Positions 14,361 through 19,645 of a DNA stretch of 64,000 nt are shown here, piece after piece. This DNA is from Geoglobus acetivorans (lineage in GTDB: Archaea; Halobacteriota; Archaeoglobi; Archaeoglobales; Archaeoglobaceae). The notes below the pieces were generated by a model. The model was not told the DNA's origin. It saw only the letters and a program-made list of their open reading frames with translations, and made no database searches. The position numbers and the translations under genes are program-made. The first letter of the stretch is position 1. The number at the start of each line of letters is the position of its first letter. The stretch is taken from contig NZ_CP009552.1 in assembly GCF_000789255.1 (NCBI RefSeq), positions 496,001 through 560,000 of the forward strand, read 5' to 3'.

Positions 14361-14971
14361 AGGTTCTCCTGATCGGTTTCGGAGACGTTGGAAGGGCTGT
14401 TGCCCGGATTCTGCTGTCGAGGAATATCGAGGTTACGGCTGTGGACGTATCTGAAACGAGAATGGATGGTGTGAACTTCATCAAGACAGATGCATTATCC
14501 GAGGAACTTTACGAATTTGTTGATCTCGACGAATATTCTGCGGCGATTATTGCTCTGCCAAATGATGTTGATGCTCTGCTCTGCATAATGATGATCAAAA
14601 AGAAAAAAGAGGACCTGCTGATTTTTGCGAGATGCAATAACCCCTCCTACAGGGAAAAGATGAGCATTGCCGGGGCAGATTATGTGGTAGATATATCCAC
14701 GATCACGTCTCAGATGATCCTCTCGACGATTTTCAGGGAAGAGGCAGAGAAGAGGCTCCTCTATGAGAACATCCATGTGAGGACCTACACTGTTTCCGAG
14801 AACTCCCCTCTGGTGGGGAGGAGAGTGGAGGATTTTGACGACGTTTTGATACTGGGCATGGAGAAAGACGGAGCCGTCAGGCATGAGGGGGTTATTGAAC
14901 CCGGATCGAAGATAGCGGTGGTCGGGGAGATTGAGGTTCTGAAGGCGTTTGAAGAAAGGTTTATGACTTAG
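14357..14971 (+). CDS. Stand-alone RCK (TrkA-N/TrkA-C) regulatory subunit
   Basis: A 204-residue soluble protein with a TrkA-N Rossmann fold (MKVLLIGFGDVGRAVARIL, a complete GxGxxG) and a TrkA-C domain from about 120 (TVSENSPLVGRRVEDF). The start overlaps the channel stop (ATGA). The intact nucleotide loop contrasts with the altered loop of the channel's own RCK domain. The two may form a mixed gating ring in which this subunit contributes NAD(H) sensing. That partnership is inference from the gene overlap. Confidence 0.85.
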   Translation: MKVLLIGFGDVGRAVARILLSRNIEVTAVDVSETRMDGVNFIKTDALSEELYEFVDLDEYSAAIIALPNDVDALLCIMMIKKKKEDLLIFARCNNPSYREKMSIAGADYVVDISTITSQMILSTIFREEAEKRLLYENIHVRTYTVSENSPLVGRRVEDFDDVLILGMEKDGAVRHEGVIEPGSKIAVVGEIEVLKAFEERFMT

Positions 14972-15368
14972 ACACTATTATCTTTCCTCCTTCAAGCCTT
15001 CCGATCTTTGCGTAACCCTCTATGACTATTCTGTTGGCCTTCACGAACCCAATAACGCTTCCTTCCCTTATTATGACCGAATCGCCTTTGACGAATTTAC
15101 CCCTGCACTTTGGAAAAATCAGAACGTTCCCCTCAGCAACAATCTCGTTGAACTCGGTTTTTGGCCCGATAATCGCTTTTTCGCACAGTATTGATCCCCC
15201 AACAAAGTTCCTTCCGGCAAGTTTTACCTCACTGGCCTCTATATTGCCCCAGAAACTGGACAGGATTCCTGCAAAAACGGTTCCATCAAATCTGAGGTGC
15301 CTGTCAACTATCGAGTCCTTTCCCACTATCAGAGTTTTTCCATCCCTGCTGAGCCTGTATTTCTTCAT
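14961..15368 (-). CDS. Bactofilin-like beta-helical polymer-forming protein
   Basis: A 135-residue protein made of short hydrophobic strand repeats (for example IVDRHLRFDGTVFAGILSSFWGN, then VKLAGRNFVGGSI, CEKAIIGP, EIVAEGNVLIFP, VIIREGSVIGFVKANRIVIEG). This periodic pattern fits a right-handed beta-helix of the bactofilin/polymer-forming cytoskeletal type. No signal peptide or membrane segment is present. The start overlaps the PUA gene stop (ATGA) and the stop overlaps the convergent RCK gene by 11 bases. Function is unknown; a structural or scaffold role is inferred from fold only. Confidence 0.55.
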   Translation of the reverse strand: MKKYRLSRDGKTLIVGKDSIVDRHLRFDGTVFAGILSSFWGNIEASEVKLAGRNFVGGSILCEKAIIGPKTEFNEIVAEGNVLIFPKCRGKFVKGDSVIIREGSVIGFVKANRIVIEGYAKIGRLEGGKIIVSKS

Positions 15369-15832
15369 TTTCTTACCCCCTGTCTCACGTCCACCGCCAC
15401 TCCTCTCTGGAATTCCAGCATTTCAAAAGCAGAAAGAACGGCTTTCCCTGTGGCAAGCAGGATGTCGCTCTCATCGACCACGATAACCTCGTCGTTGGCC
15501 CTTATGGTGCTATCAACATCAACCACATGCTTTGCAAAGACGTTTTTGCCTGCTGCAATGAACTCTGCAACCCTGCTATCAACCACAACCCGCAGCTGCG
15601 GATAAGGGAGCAAGTCCTTCAACCTCCTTGCACCCTCTATGCTTATGGAGAGCCAGCCACTTTCGGGTTTGATTGTGGCTATTCTCCTGCCGTCATCCGT
15701 AATCTGCCTGATCTTCCCGGTTTTTCTGGATACTATGAACTGGCATGATTCCGGAAAAAGCGCCTTTCCGGCACCTCTCCCGAACTGATAATCTGCCAGG
15801 ACCCTTACGGTCTTGAGGTATCTATCTTCCAT
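15365..15832 (-). CDS. PUA-domain RNA-binding protein
   Basis: A 155-residue protein. The N-terminal part (LKTVRVLADYQFGRGAGKALFP) followed by a C-terminal PUA domain (LRVVVDSRVAEFIAAGKNVFAKHVV to DESDILLATGKAV) resembles the C-terminal region of archaeal tRNA-guanine transglycosylase/ArcS enzymes. Stand-alone copies of about 160 residues are common in Euryarchaeota. No catalytic domain is present. It probably binds structured RNA and may assist an RNA-modification enzyme encoded elsewhere. It is flanked in the same operon by the cis-prenyltransferase-like and bactofilin-like genes, with short overlaps on both sides. Confidence 0.75.
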   Translation of the reverse strand: MEDRYLKTVRVLADYQFGRGAGKALFPESCQFIVSRKTGKIRQITDDGRRIATIKPESGWLSISIEGARRLKDLLPYPQLRVVVDSRVAEFIAAGKNVFAKHVVDVDSTIRANDEVIVVDESDILLATGKAVLSAFEMLEFQRGVAVDVRQGVRK

Positions 15833-16427
15833 ATCTCCTCTCCCTCTTCTGGTATTCTCTCAGAATTCTCAAAAAGTCAATGTATCTTAAGTTTTTCCAG
15901 TCAACATCATAAAACATGTGCTCGCTGTATATGCTCTGCCATATCAGAAAATCGTCAAGCTCGAAATTGGCTCTGAGTATAAGGTCGGGTTCAGACTTCA
16001 CTCTCAATCTTTTTTCGATCTCCCTTTCATCTATTGCGTCTGGCATGACCTTTCCTTTCAGGACATCTTCAGCAAGCTCCTTTGCAATCTGAACAAGCTC
16101 CCTCCTTCCACTGAGTGCGTTCAGAAATACCCTGACCCTGCCTTCACCGCTTTTTTCAAGAGTCGTGTTTTCTGTAACGATACACGCCCGGCAGGGGATT
16201 CTGTATGCCAGTTTTTTCAGGTCTTCAAAACTTGCGTTCCCGTTTATGGCGAACGTAATTTCCCGGACATCAAAGCTGTCACACCACCTGATAAAACTTC
16301 GGACACCGTTAAAACCTTCGTTTATTTCCCTGAATGAGGTGATGACCATAATGTGAGCTGGAACTTTTTTTCCCCTGACCTCTTTTTCGAGTTTTCTGAT
16401 GTAGAGCCTGTAAATGAGTTCGATCAT
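15822..16427 (-). CDS. Divergent cis-prenyltransferase subunit (NgBR-like)
   Basis: A 201-residue protein. The C-terminal third contains EPDLILRANFELDDFLIWQSIYSEHMFYD and the end IDFLRILREYQKRERRYGR, which match undecaprenyl-diphosphate synthase. The N-terminal catalytic signature (HxAxIMDGNGRW) is replaced by AHIMVITSFREINEGFNG, without the essential Asp-Gly-Asn. In eukaryotes, and reportedly in some archaea including Archaeoglobus, cis-prenyltransferase is a heteromer of a catalytic subunit and such a degenerate NgBR-like partner. This protein is best read as that non-catalytic subunit for making polyprenyl carrier lipid for glycosylation. The catalytic partner is not in the window. Confidence 0.75.
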   Translation of the reverse strand: MIELIYRLYIRKLEKEVRGKKVPAHIMVITSFREINEGFNGVRSFIRWCDSFDVREITFAINGNASFEDLKKLAYRIPCRACIVTENTTLEKSGEGRVRVFLNALSGRRELVQIAKELAEDVLKGKVMPDAIDEREIEKRLRVKSEPDLILRANFELDDFLIWQSIYSEHMFYDVDWKNLRYIDFLRILREYQKRERRYGR

Positions 16428-16459: not shown

Positions 16460-17647
16460 ATGTTCCCGATGGATATAGCACTGGCGCTCCTGGCATACCT
16501 GTATCCGAAACTGGATGTGGTGGGAATTACCGGACTGGCAATCGCACTTCTGATTTACCGGGCCTCGAAGATTCGCAAAATTGAACTCAGAGGTAACTTT
16601 GAAGAGGACTCTTTTTTCGCCATTCTGCTTTTCATGTTTCTGACCTTATCCGTTCACTTCAACCTCATACCTGCCTACACTGCTGTGCCTGCGATTTTTG
16701 TGTCATCACTGAGAGTTAGAATGCCCTACTACCTTTCAATCCCGGTTTACTTTGCAATGTCCACAGTCTTTCTGAGTTACTTCCCCAATCCCTGGAATTT
16801 TACCCTTATTTTGCTGATCTCTCTCACAGTTTCACTCGCCACAACCCTGATAATGCATGCTGCGGAGAACACCTCCTATTCGATCCCCCTGATACTCACG
16901 AATCTTTCTGTGCTGATAGCTTTTGAGATATACCGGATAGATGTCAGTGAAGTTGAGCTGATTACCGGATTTCTGCTCGCTTTCGTTCTCAGCATGATCG
17001 CCTACCGGGCCGGTGTTGCGGATGAGACAGGACTCATGGCAGCCACAATTACTGGGATGCTCATCATCGTCTCTGCAAGCCTGAAATTCTTTGTCATTCT
17101 CCTCCTCTTCTATGCTGTTGGGTCTGCAGCAACCAAATACCGGTACAAAGAAAAAGAACGTCTCGGAATAGGTGAACCAGCAGGTGGAGCGAGAGGATAT
17201 GTGAATGTTTTTGCCAACAGCTTTCCGGCACTGTTTTTCTCCCTGAATTATGGCTACATGGACGAACGTGTGTTTGCCCTCGCATTTACCGCGAGCCTCG
17301 CAACTGCTCTTGGAGACACAATGGCCAGTGAAATAGGCAAGATGGCTGAAAGAGTGTACCTCATCACGACGTTTGAAAGAATAACACCGGGAGAAAGCGG
17401 CGGGGTCTCGGTTAGGGGTGAAATTGCTGCTCTCACAGGCGCCGCTCTGATCTCCCTTTCTGCCTCACTTCTCGGAATCCTCACTTTTCAGGAGGCCCTG
17501 ATTTCCATGGTAGCGGGATTTGTCGGGGTTCATGTGGATAGCGTTCTCGGAGCAACCTTAGAGAAAAAAGGTATGTTGAACAATGCAGGTGTTAACCTTT
17601 TCGCCACACTCTCCGCAGGATTGCTGTGCCTGCTAACAGTGCTGTAA
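16460..17647 (+). CDS. DUF92/VTE6-type membrane protein, possible prenol-phosphate kinase
   Basis: A 395-residue protein with about 11 hydrophobic segments. The C-terminal half carries DUF92 family features: ADETGLMAATITGMLII, GARGYVNVFANSFPALFFSL, ALGDTMASEIGK and TPGESGGVSVRGE. Plant and cyanobacterial VTE6 members phosphorylate phytyl-phosphate with CTP in isoprenoid salvage. It is divergent from the cis-prenyltransferase-like gene with only 32 bases between the starts, so both may share a promoter region and a role in polyprenyl-phosphate handling (inference). The 3' end overlaps the convergent S16 protease gene by 56 bases. Confidence 0.75.
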   Translation: MFPMDIALALLAYLYPKLDVVGITGLAIALLIYRASKIRKIELRGNFEEDSFFAILLFMFLTLSVHFNLIPAYTAVPAIFVSSLRVRMPYYLSIPVYFAMSTVFLSYFPNPWNFTLILLISLTVSLATTLIMHAAENTSYSIPLILTNLSVLIAFEIYRIDVSEVELITGFLLAFVLSMIAYRAGVADETGLMAATITGMLIIVSASLKFFVILLLFYAVGSAATKYRYKEKERLGIGEPAGGARGYVNVFANSFPALFFSLNYGYMDERVFALAFTASLATALGDTMASEIGKMAERVYLITTFERITPGESGGVSVRGEIAALTGAALISLSASLLGILTFQEALISMVAGFVGVHVDSVLGATLEKKGMLNNAGVNLFATLSAGLLCLLTVL

Positions 17648-19436
17648 CCGCAGCGGCGCCTTCAAATCCGGGCAGGCTGAATATTTTTTCTATCTGTCTT
17701 TCCACTATGGTTGGGACTTCTGGCGTTATTTTCATTTCTGGATGCCTGTAATTGACTTCAACGAGCTCAACGCTCTCCTTGCCGCCTATCGCCACCAGAG
17801 TCTTCGCTATTCTTTCCGAGAGCTTGTAGTAGTACAGCTTCCACACACCATCTGATGTCTCTCCAAACTCGTAATATGCATAGGGGAGCATTGGTATTGT
17901 GTATTTCTCGGCAATGCCTATTGCGTTTTCCACAGAACTTTTTGAGGTGTTTATTTTCTCGTTAAGGTCCTTATCGCTGTTTATGGCGAGAACCTCAATG
18001 GATATTGCGGATTTGACCATGCTGTCTATGGCTGCAAAAACCGTTCCGGCGTAGTAGCCGTTGTTGTACAGCTCTTCAGCGAGTTTTAAACTCTCGTCGG
18101 CTGAGCTATCGCCGTACAGGAGCGACTGCACTCCTCCTATTTCCCCGGCATAGACAAACAGGGATTCCGCCATGCTCAGGTAGAAATCAGCCCTCCTCTT
18201 GATCTCGTCGGGGTTCATCTGCGTATCCTCCTTGATTTCCGGCAGGAGAGACATCCAGACCTTCGCACTTTCCACTCTCTCCTTTGCAAGTGCGAGATTC
18301 ACGATGGCGTCGTCCCAGTTGCTGGCAGTGGTCGCTTTTTCGAGGTAATTCTCAGCCTTTGCAAGTCTTTCCTGTGCTGCACCAACTATCTGGAATGATG
18401 CGAGACCCATTTCATAGGACTCAGCGACCCTCTTGGTGGATTCTATCTCGTCCCTGATGACCTTCTCCTCCACACTGAACGATGAATCGTCCTTTATCCT
18501 GGATCTGTATATCTCCTCCCTCATGAGTATCTTGGCAGTGAAGTAGGTGCTTGTTGATGAGTAGTAATAGCCCTCGCTGTAATACTCTTCACCCTTTTTG
18601 AGCCTCTCGTCAATGGATTTTTTAGTTTCAGAGTCTGCAACTTTTTCAAATTCCTTGTACAGGTCCATTGCGTCTTTTTTCATCCTTTCGGCGAGGATTT
18701 TCATCAGGTCAGCGTATTTCTCGGTTTCGAGCTTGCCCTCCTCGTGCTTCAGCTCCACCCCTGCGTAGTATTTCAGTGCCTCGGTGATGTTCTCTATCTC
18801 AACAACTTTAACACCAAGGCTCTGTCCATATTTTACAAGGTCCACGGTTTTTGTTTCCGTGTTGACAATTATGAACGGCCCTTTCTGGGCTTTTTCTGTT
18901 TCAAGGACCTTCTCGTATCTCTGACCCTTGGGGATAAGAAATATTTTGGCTCCGTTTTCTGCAGCAGCCTCCAGCTTGTATTTTATCCCTCCAACCGGAC
19001 CTATGCTTCCGTCCGGGTATATCATTCCGGTCATGTAGACATCTTTTCTGAGGGTCAGGTTTTCGAGAGCGGCAATTGTGGCGATTGTCATCACGGCTCC
19101 TGCTGAGGGCCCGCCCACGATGGTGGACTTTGCTTCAATTGTGTAGAAAAAGTCATGTTTCAGAAAATCGTTTCCTGTCAGATCGCAGGCAGTCAGAGCG
19201 GCAAGCTGTGCGCTGCCCTGCATGTCTATCTCGGTAAATGGAGAAACCGACACAAAAACTCTCCCTGTTCCGGGGGTGACTATCACGGAGATGTCTATGG
19301 TCGCACCCTTGTTCTCACCACTTACGACTGCAACTGCCTTTATCTGCTTTTCAGTATAGTTTGCAAACTGTGCATTGGCGTACGGGGCTAACAGAATCAG
19401 AATGAGGAAAAAAGACAGAATATTTTTGACTTTCAT
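17592..19436 (-). CDS. Secreted or membrane-anchored Lon-type (S16) serine protease
   Basis: A 614-residue protein with an N-terminal signal peptide (KNILSFFLILILLAPYANAQ) and a C-terminal hydrophobic anchor (GFEGAAAVTALLAGTAIL). Residues about 30-190 form a Lon proteolytic domain: the serine is S111 in GGPSAGA and the lysine K151 in GGIKYKLEAA. No AAA+ module is present, and the rest is helical, with TPR-like or coiled-coil segments. It would act outside the membrane as an ATP-independent protease. I chose the ATG at 19436 because it places the signal peptide at the N-terminus. It overlaps the DUF92 gene at the 3' end. Confidence 0.85.
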   Translation of the reverse strand: MKVKNILSFFLILILLAPYANAQFANYTEKQIKAVAVVSGENKGATIDISVIVTPGTGRVFVSVSPFTEIDMQGSAQLAALTACDLTGNDFLKHDFFYTIEAKSTIVGGPSAGAVMTIATIAALENLTLRKDVYMTGMIYPDGSIGPVGGIKYKLEAAAENGAKIFLIPKGQRYEKVLETEKAQKGPFIIVNTETKTVDLVKYGQSLGVKVVEIENITEALKYYAGVELKHEEGKLETEKYADLMKILAERMKKDAMDLYKEFEKVADSETKKSIDERLKKGEEYYSEGYYYSSTSTYFTAKILMREEIYRSRIKDDSSFSVEEKVIRDEIESTKRVAESYEMGLASFQIVGAAQERLAKAENYLEKATTASNWDDAIVNLALAKERVESAKVWMSLLPEIKEDTQMNPDEIKRRADFYLSMAESLFVYAGEIGGVQSLLYGDSSADESLKLAEELYNNGYYAGTVFAAIDSMVKSAISIEVLAINSDKDLNEKINTSKSSVENAIGIAEKYTIPMLPYAYYEFGETSDGVWKLYYYKLSERIAKTLVAIGGKESVELVEVNYRHPEMKITPEVPTIVERQIEKIFSLPGFEGAAAVTALLAGTAILRRVWRKG

Positions 19437-19645
19437 GTTTATTAAGTAACAAGATATCGATTTAATAACTTTTTGACTCCCACGCTGTTTTGCTTTCTGA
19501 CACAGTACCTTCACCTGCTGATTTCCACTTTGGATTTGTTTTGGGTTAAACGCTGCGTACCCGGCTGCATGCCTGAACAACCTTGGGTGTGGAGACTCCG
19601 GAAATTACTAAATATGATGTGCTGAATAACTGTAATATGAAGTCT

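Follow-up and report, generated by a model that had tools for sequence, protein, structure and literature searches.

Genes at the locus

The window, as we call the whole stretch of DNA analysed here, comprises 64,000 nucleotides of Geoglobus acetivorans (NZ_CP009552.1, positions 496,001 to 560,000). Its minus strand contains an open reading frame that starts with ATG and encodes a protein of 201 amino acids related to the cis-prenyltransferases (cPTs). The following features were assigned at this locus:

14961-15368, minus strand: bactofilin-like protein of 135 aa; 4-bp overlap with the TGT_C2/PUA gene
15365..15832, minus strand: free-standing protein with TGT_C2 and PUA domains; seen in 54/127 loci, Archaeoglobi-type
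15822..16427, minus strand: most probably a non-catalytic (NgBR/Nus1-like) cPT subunit, 201 aa; from the ORF, PF01255, predicted fold and dN/dS
15828..15836, minus strand: C-terminal RxG motif, Arg198-Tyr199-Gly200; in 115/116 non-catalytic and 0/68 catalytic proteins
15921..15923, minus strand: Glu169, equivalent to E213 of E. coli UppS; Glu in 116/116 non-catalytic subunits
16329..16337, minus strand: residues 31-33, Ser-Phe-Arg, where the catalytic Asp-Gly-Asn has been lost; from the alignment with UppS, DHDDS/NUS1 and 184 homologues
16460..17647, plus strand: integral membrane protein of the DUF92/TIGR00297 family; PF01940 and TIGR00297 above cut-off
17592-19580, minus strand: predicted exported protein with a Lon (S16) protease domain and a PGF-CTERM-like tail (weak match)

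ORF 15822-16427 is a real gene under strong purifying selection. Compared with its nearest relative, the degenerate gene has a dN/dS of 0.037, while the catalytic paralogue described below has 0.034. Moreover, orthologues of the degenerate cPT are found throughout the phylum, with identities from 97% down to about 30%. Together, these data indicate that the gene is maintained and not decaying, in agreement with the original prediction, which had been made from the DNA alone and had argued against a dead gene.

The Pfam profile PF01255 matched the 201-aa protein in residues 96-200 alone (profile positions 115-219 of 219), scoring 69.5 bits where 27 is the cut-off. Hence, the C-terminal half is recognisable by sequence and the N-terminal half is not. 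For the single chain, AlphaFold2 gave a mean pLDDT of 85.7 and a pTM of 0.83, and a Foldseek search with the predicted structure identified the cPT fold, with E-values of about 1e-12 to 1e-9 for UppS and a TM-score of about 0.7 for both UppS and DHDDS. The N-terminal half is predicted to be present and to have kept the fold without the motif. One chain was folded in this prediction, and the complex with a partner is something that we infer. The PDB relatives of the protein are UppS enzymes. Human NUS1/NgBR was a weak match from the single sequence and reached 8.5e-15 with the family profile, the whole domain being covered.

Active-site residues

We aligned 116 degenerate and 68 catalytic homologues with E. 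coli UppS, human DHDDS and human NUS1, and scored 11 substrate and catalytic sites of E. coli UppS (D26, G27, N28, R30, H43, S71, N74, R77, R194, R200 and S202). In the 201-aa protein, D26-G27-N28 is replaced by Ser-Phe-Arg, the segment with H43 and N74 is absent, and the IPP-binding residues R200 and S202 have become Glu and Asp; only the equivalent of R194 is left, which is one of the 11 residues. The protein does retain the WQ..YSE motif, including the equivalent of E213, and the C-terminal Arg-Tyr-Gly. Judged from the alignment, what was retained would lie on the side of the dimer that is turned toward the partner.

This division separates the two groups of homologues. Degenerate proteins score 0-3 of the 11 sites and human NUS1 scores 1, while catalytic homologues score 10-11 and DHDDS scores 11. 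Asp-Gly-Asn was found in none of the 116 degenerate proteins and in all 68 catalytic ones. The RxG motif shows the opposite distribution, where the sole exception among the degenerate proteins has Lys in place of Arg. The equivalent of E213 is variable on the catalytic side (Glu in 45 of 69 rows, E. coli UppS counted) and is Asn in the catalytic cPT of the same genome.

The original prediction had described a cPT that lacks the N-terminal Asp-Gly-Asn block and strongly keeps its C-terminal substrate-handling region. The loss of the block was confirmed, both in the protein itself and in its 116 homologues. With regard to the C-terminal region, the homology holds, but the substrate residues are gone, R200 and S202 among them, and it is the dimer and RxG side that was kept. 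A recovered catalytic Asp had been named as evidence against the prediction; this position is Ser in the 201-aa protein. An isolated Asp at the D26 position does occur in 29 of the 116 degenerate homologues, never as Asp-Gly-Asn and with the other site residues absent. This lone Asp is a point against reading these proteins as part of a heteromer.

Elsewhere in the ORF, the only letters resembling Asp-Gly-Asn are an Asn-Gly-Asn at about residues 61-63; as an intact catalytic site this was rejected, since it aligns with F70-S71 and not with D26. The Asp-Gly-Asn of the homologue L005 likewise aligns with the F70-S71 region and not with D26.

A probable catalytic partner and its occurrence in the phylum

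The complete 1.86-Mb genome encodes exactly one PF01255 protein besides the 201-aa protein, and this is the catalytic homologue whose presence had been anticipated. It has 253 amino acids (G000:C1, about 187.4-188.2 kb; locus L001:1426-2187), is encoded about 324 kb away from ORF 15822-16427, carries MDGNRR together with 11 of 11 active-site residues, and is without RxG.

Among 394 sampled genomes of the phylum, the non-catalytic profile matched in 387 and the catalytic profile in 384. Since the non-catalytic profile picks up catalytic proteins as well, pair counts per genome are the stricter evidence. In a direct count over 40 relatives, 38 combine a full-length cPT with one that is C-terminal only; the remaining two are G036, with a strongly diverged second half, and G033, without any cPT. 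The pair was also counted in 30 of 31 Methanosarcina-type genomes, the exception being an incomplete genome with a non-catalytic match only. An additional protein of the MM_0014 type (see below) is possible in Methanosarcinaceae-like genomes.

The genomes without cPT are five of family f9 and two incomplete ones. In the f9 genomes G033, G042, G051, G060 and G067, no cPT match was obtained in five of five, and STT3/AglB is also absent in four of the five. Archaea of this family, seen here in genomes that are 75-91% complete, may lack dolichol-based N-glycosylation.

An archaeal heteromeric cPT is already known from a related methanogen. Methanosarcina mazei has three cPT paralogues. PMC8131916, citing Emi et al. 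2019, describes MM_0618 and MM_1083 as a heteromeric cPT that makes C45-50 products and MM_0014 as a versatile enzyme of its own. That two subunits are required in archaea is stated in the passage of PMC8904820 that cites the same study. One sampled genome, G397, encodes as its third cPT the MM_0014 sequence of PDB 7caq with one residue different, which identifies the genome as M. mazei. Besides it, G397 encodes a catalytic cPT (MDGNRR), 50% identical to the catalytic protein of G. acetivorans over 242 aa, and a non-catalytic one ending in RRYGK, 44% identical to the 201-aa protein over the C-terminal 104 aa. With MM_0014 assigned, these two orthologues of the G. acetivorans pair can only be MM_0618 and MM_1083, and the gene spacing suggests a catalytic role for MM_0618 and a non-catalytic one for MM_1083.

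The pairs of M. mazei and G. acetivorans are thus orthologous, show the same motif split and belong to the same phylum. They differ in several respects. The third, TLGG-tailed cPT MM_0014 is absent from the G. acetivorans genome, and the catalytic chain of M. mazei has a C-terminal extension which the 253-aa partner lacks. Moreover, the 201-aa protein is encoded in an Archaeoglobi-type string with the TGT_C2/PUA gene.

A probable heteromeric cis-prenyltransferase

We consider it very likely that the 201-aa protein serves a heteromeric cPT as its non-catalytic subunit, the other chain being the one catalytic cPT that the genome encodes. This reading is based on how the sequence is built, on motifs that are split reciprocally between the two proteins, on their one-to-one pairing throughout the phylum, on purifying selection and on the orthology to the M. 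mazei pair. From it we infer, for G. acetivorans, a physical complex, its activity, the length of its product and a role in making the carrier lipid. The NgBR-like heteromer of the original prediction is supported by the motif split and by the M. mazei pair. It had been called the mechanism used by eukaryotes for dolichol; the mechanism is not restricted to eukaryotes, given the M. mazei pair as summarised in PMC8131916.

In the human complex the C-terminus of NgBR crosses the interface, the backbone of its RxG motif binds the S2 phosphate, and Asp34 of DHDDS binds Mg (PMC7573591). NUS1 resembles the 201-aa protein in the absence of Asp-Gly-Asn, in keeping RxG and the equivalent of E213, in the gap where the segment of H43 would be and in having one of the 11 residues, and DHDDS resembles the catalytic partner, with 11 of 11 residues and no RxG. 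Differences are also apparent. NgBR is a membrane protein, whereas no NgBR-type hydrophobic N-terminal anchor was found in the 201-aa protein, where the highest 19-residue Kyte-Doolittle hydropathy is 0.58. The C-terminal helix-turn-helix of DHDDS, which makes the human tetramer, is missing from the 253-aa partner. With the homodimeric UppS of E. coli and B. subtilis the 201-aa protein shares the fold and the C-terminal sequence; UppS, however, carries both motif sets in one chain, while in G. acetivorans they are divided over two chains.

In the proposed heteromer, the catalytic chain would supply Asp-Gly-Asn, the site for Mg and the allylic diphosphate, and the IPP-binding Arg and Ser. Across the dimer interface, the 201-aa protein would supply the Arg-x-Gly tail and the E213-type Glu, both lost by the catalytic chain. 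By analogy to NgBR-DHDDS, the RxG tail is predicted to enter the active site of the partner with the same geometry. The complex would elongate an allylic prenyl diphosphate with IPP, probably to a medium-chain polyprenyl diphosphate, from which the dolichyl-phosphate sugar carrier for protein glycosylation would be made. An STT3/AglB oligosaccharyltransferase, the presumed user of this carrier, is encoded in the genome.

The 201-aa protein might instead be an optional activator or chain-length switch of a catalytic homodimer that is already competent, and would then not complete an active site. Human DHDDS homodimers keep a low activity and NgBR increases kcat about 400-fold (PMC7573591), and this weak activity of DHDDS alone is a point against the partner being strictly needed in G. 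acetivorans. However, RxG is lost in 68 of 68 catalytic chains, so that a homodimer would be without the motif on both sides, and the near-universal co-occurrence of the two proteins argues for an obligate partner. We therefore regard an optional activator as unlikely.

Both genes exceed the PF01255 cut-off, and automatic annotation is thus likely to call each of them a stand-alone undecaprenyl diphosphate synthase. Throughout the phylum, with few exceptions among the genomes sampled, the two genes look like halves of one enzyme. This bears on the reconstruction of dolichol and glycosylation pathways, on the choice of constructs for biochemistry and on the origin of the DHDDS/NgBR arrangement. 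The nearest relatives, the Archaeoglobales, are thermophiles. Being small and lacking both the NgBR anchor and the DHDDS tail, the pair could, with such relatives, serve as a simple model of a heteromeric cPT.

Gene neighbourhood

In several lineages other than Archaeoglobi, with Methanoperedens, Methanocellales, Argoarchaeum/Ethanoperedens and Methanomicrobiales among the named loci, the two subunit genes stand tail to tail, with ends that overlap or nearly abut. In Archaeoglobi they lie apart, and at a distance of 324 kb in G. acetivorans the evidence for linkage comes from the relatives.

The DUF92 gene is divergent to the cPT subunit gene, 32 bp from its start. DUF92/TIGR00297 proteins belong to the cytidylyltransferase/dolichol-kinase-like superfamily, a link noted in PMC5898192. 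Across the phylum, a DUF92 gene adjoins the non-catalytic subunit in 87 of 127 loci. These loci are not all independent, several coming from one and the same genome, and the flanks of some are short. The association of DUF92 with uppS was noted in 2015, when a kinase step in isoprenoid metabolism was suggested (PMC5898192). The neighbour is a candidate prenyl-phosphate or dolichol-type kinase. Our data add that, with the two subunit genes separated as they are in Archaeoglobi, it is the non-catalytic one that keeps DUF92 at its side. Together with the breadth of the pair across the phylum, this recurrent link to a kinase-like gene is what the present analysis adds to the known M. mazei enzyme.

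On the other side, the TGT_C2/PUA gene runs in the same direction, and its start shares 11 bp with the end of the cPT subunit gene. TGT_C2 and PUA are C-terminal domains of the archaeosine TGT/ArcS type. The bactofilin-like gene is conserved with the TGT_C2/PUA gene in most Archaeoglobi loci. The co-directional overlap, conserved in Archaeoglobi, could point to a regulatory or RNA-related protein of cPT descent that folds independently and has nothing to do with prenyl transfer. We consider this very improbable, because the TGT_C2/PUA neighbour was not seen outside Archaeoglobi in the 127 loci searched, while DUF92 and the catalytic cPT recur throughout the phylum, and because the conservation of RxG (115/116) and of the E213 equivalent (116/116) is hard to explain without a cPT active site. 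That the gene is a decaying cPT duplicate, a pseudogene in progress beside an ordinary homodimer, would fit the loss of 10 of 11 active-site residues, but is hardly credible with a dN/dS equal to that of the active paralogue, orthologues of a single clade across the phylum and a supposed homodimer without an RxG of its own in 68 of 68 cases.

The gene with the Lon (S16) domain is conserved beside the cPT subunit locus in Archaeoglobi.

Evolution of the split

The degenerate proteins form a single clade (SH-aLRT 99-100%), which indicates that the split arose once in the history of the phylum, as sampled. The position of NUS1 differed between two trees, of which one placed it with the archaeal clade; its branch of 4-5 changes per site dominates the trees, and in trees with this long branch an exclusive archaeal non-catalytic clade was not rejected (p-AU 0.736). 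One may speculate that the split cPT goes back to the ancestor of the whole archaeal phylum and that Nus1/NgBR descended from the archaeal non-catalytic subunit and not from a separate duplication, an origin that we regard as rather doubtful. If true, humans would have inherited their dolichol synthase as a heteromer from archaea.

The non-catalytic subunits of family f12 (L072, G036:C1:104888-105187; L211, G045:C1:568994-569356) are strongly diverged proteins of 163-167 aa, in which the N-terminal half is shortened further and which still end in RRFG. The Methanosarcinaceae-type non-catalytic subunit gene at G219:C1:2055464-2056120 contains one in-frame TAG, which could reflect pyrrolysine read-through or an error.
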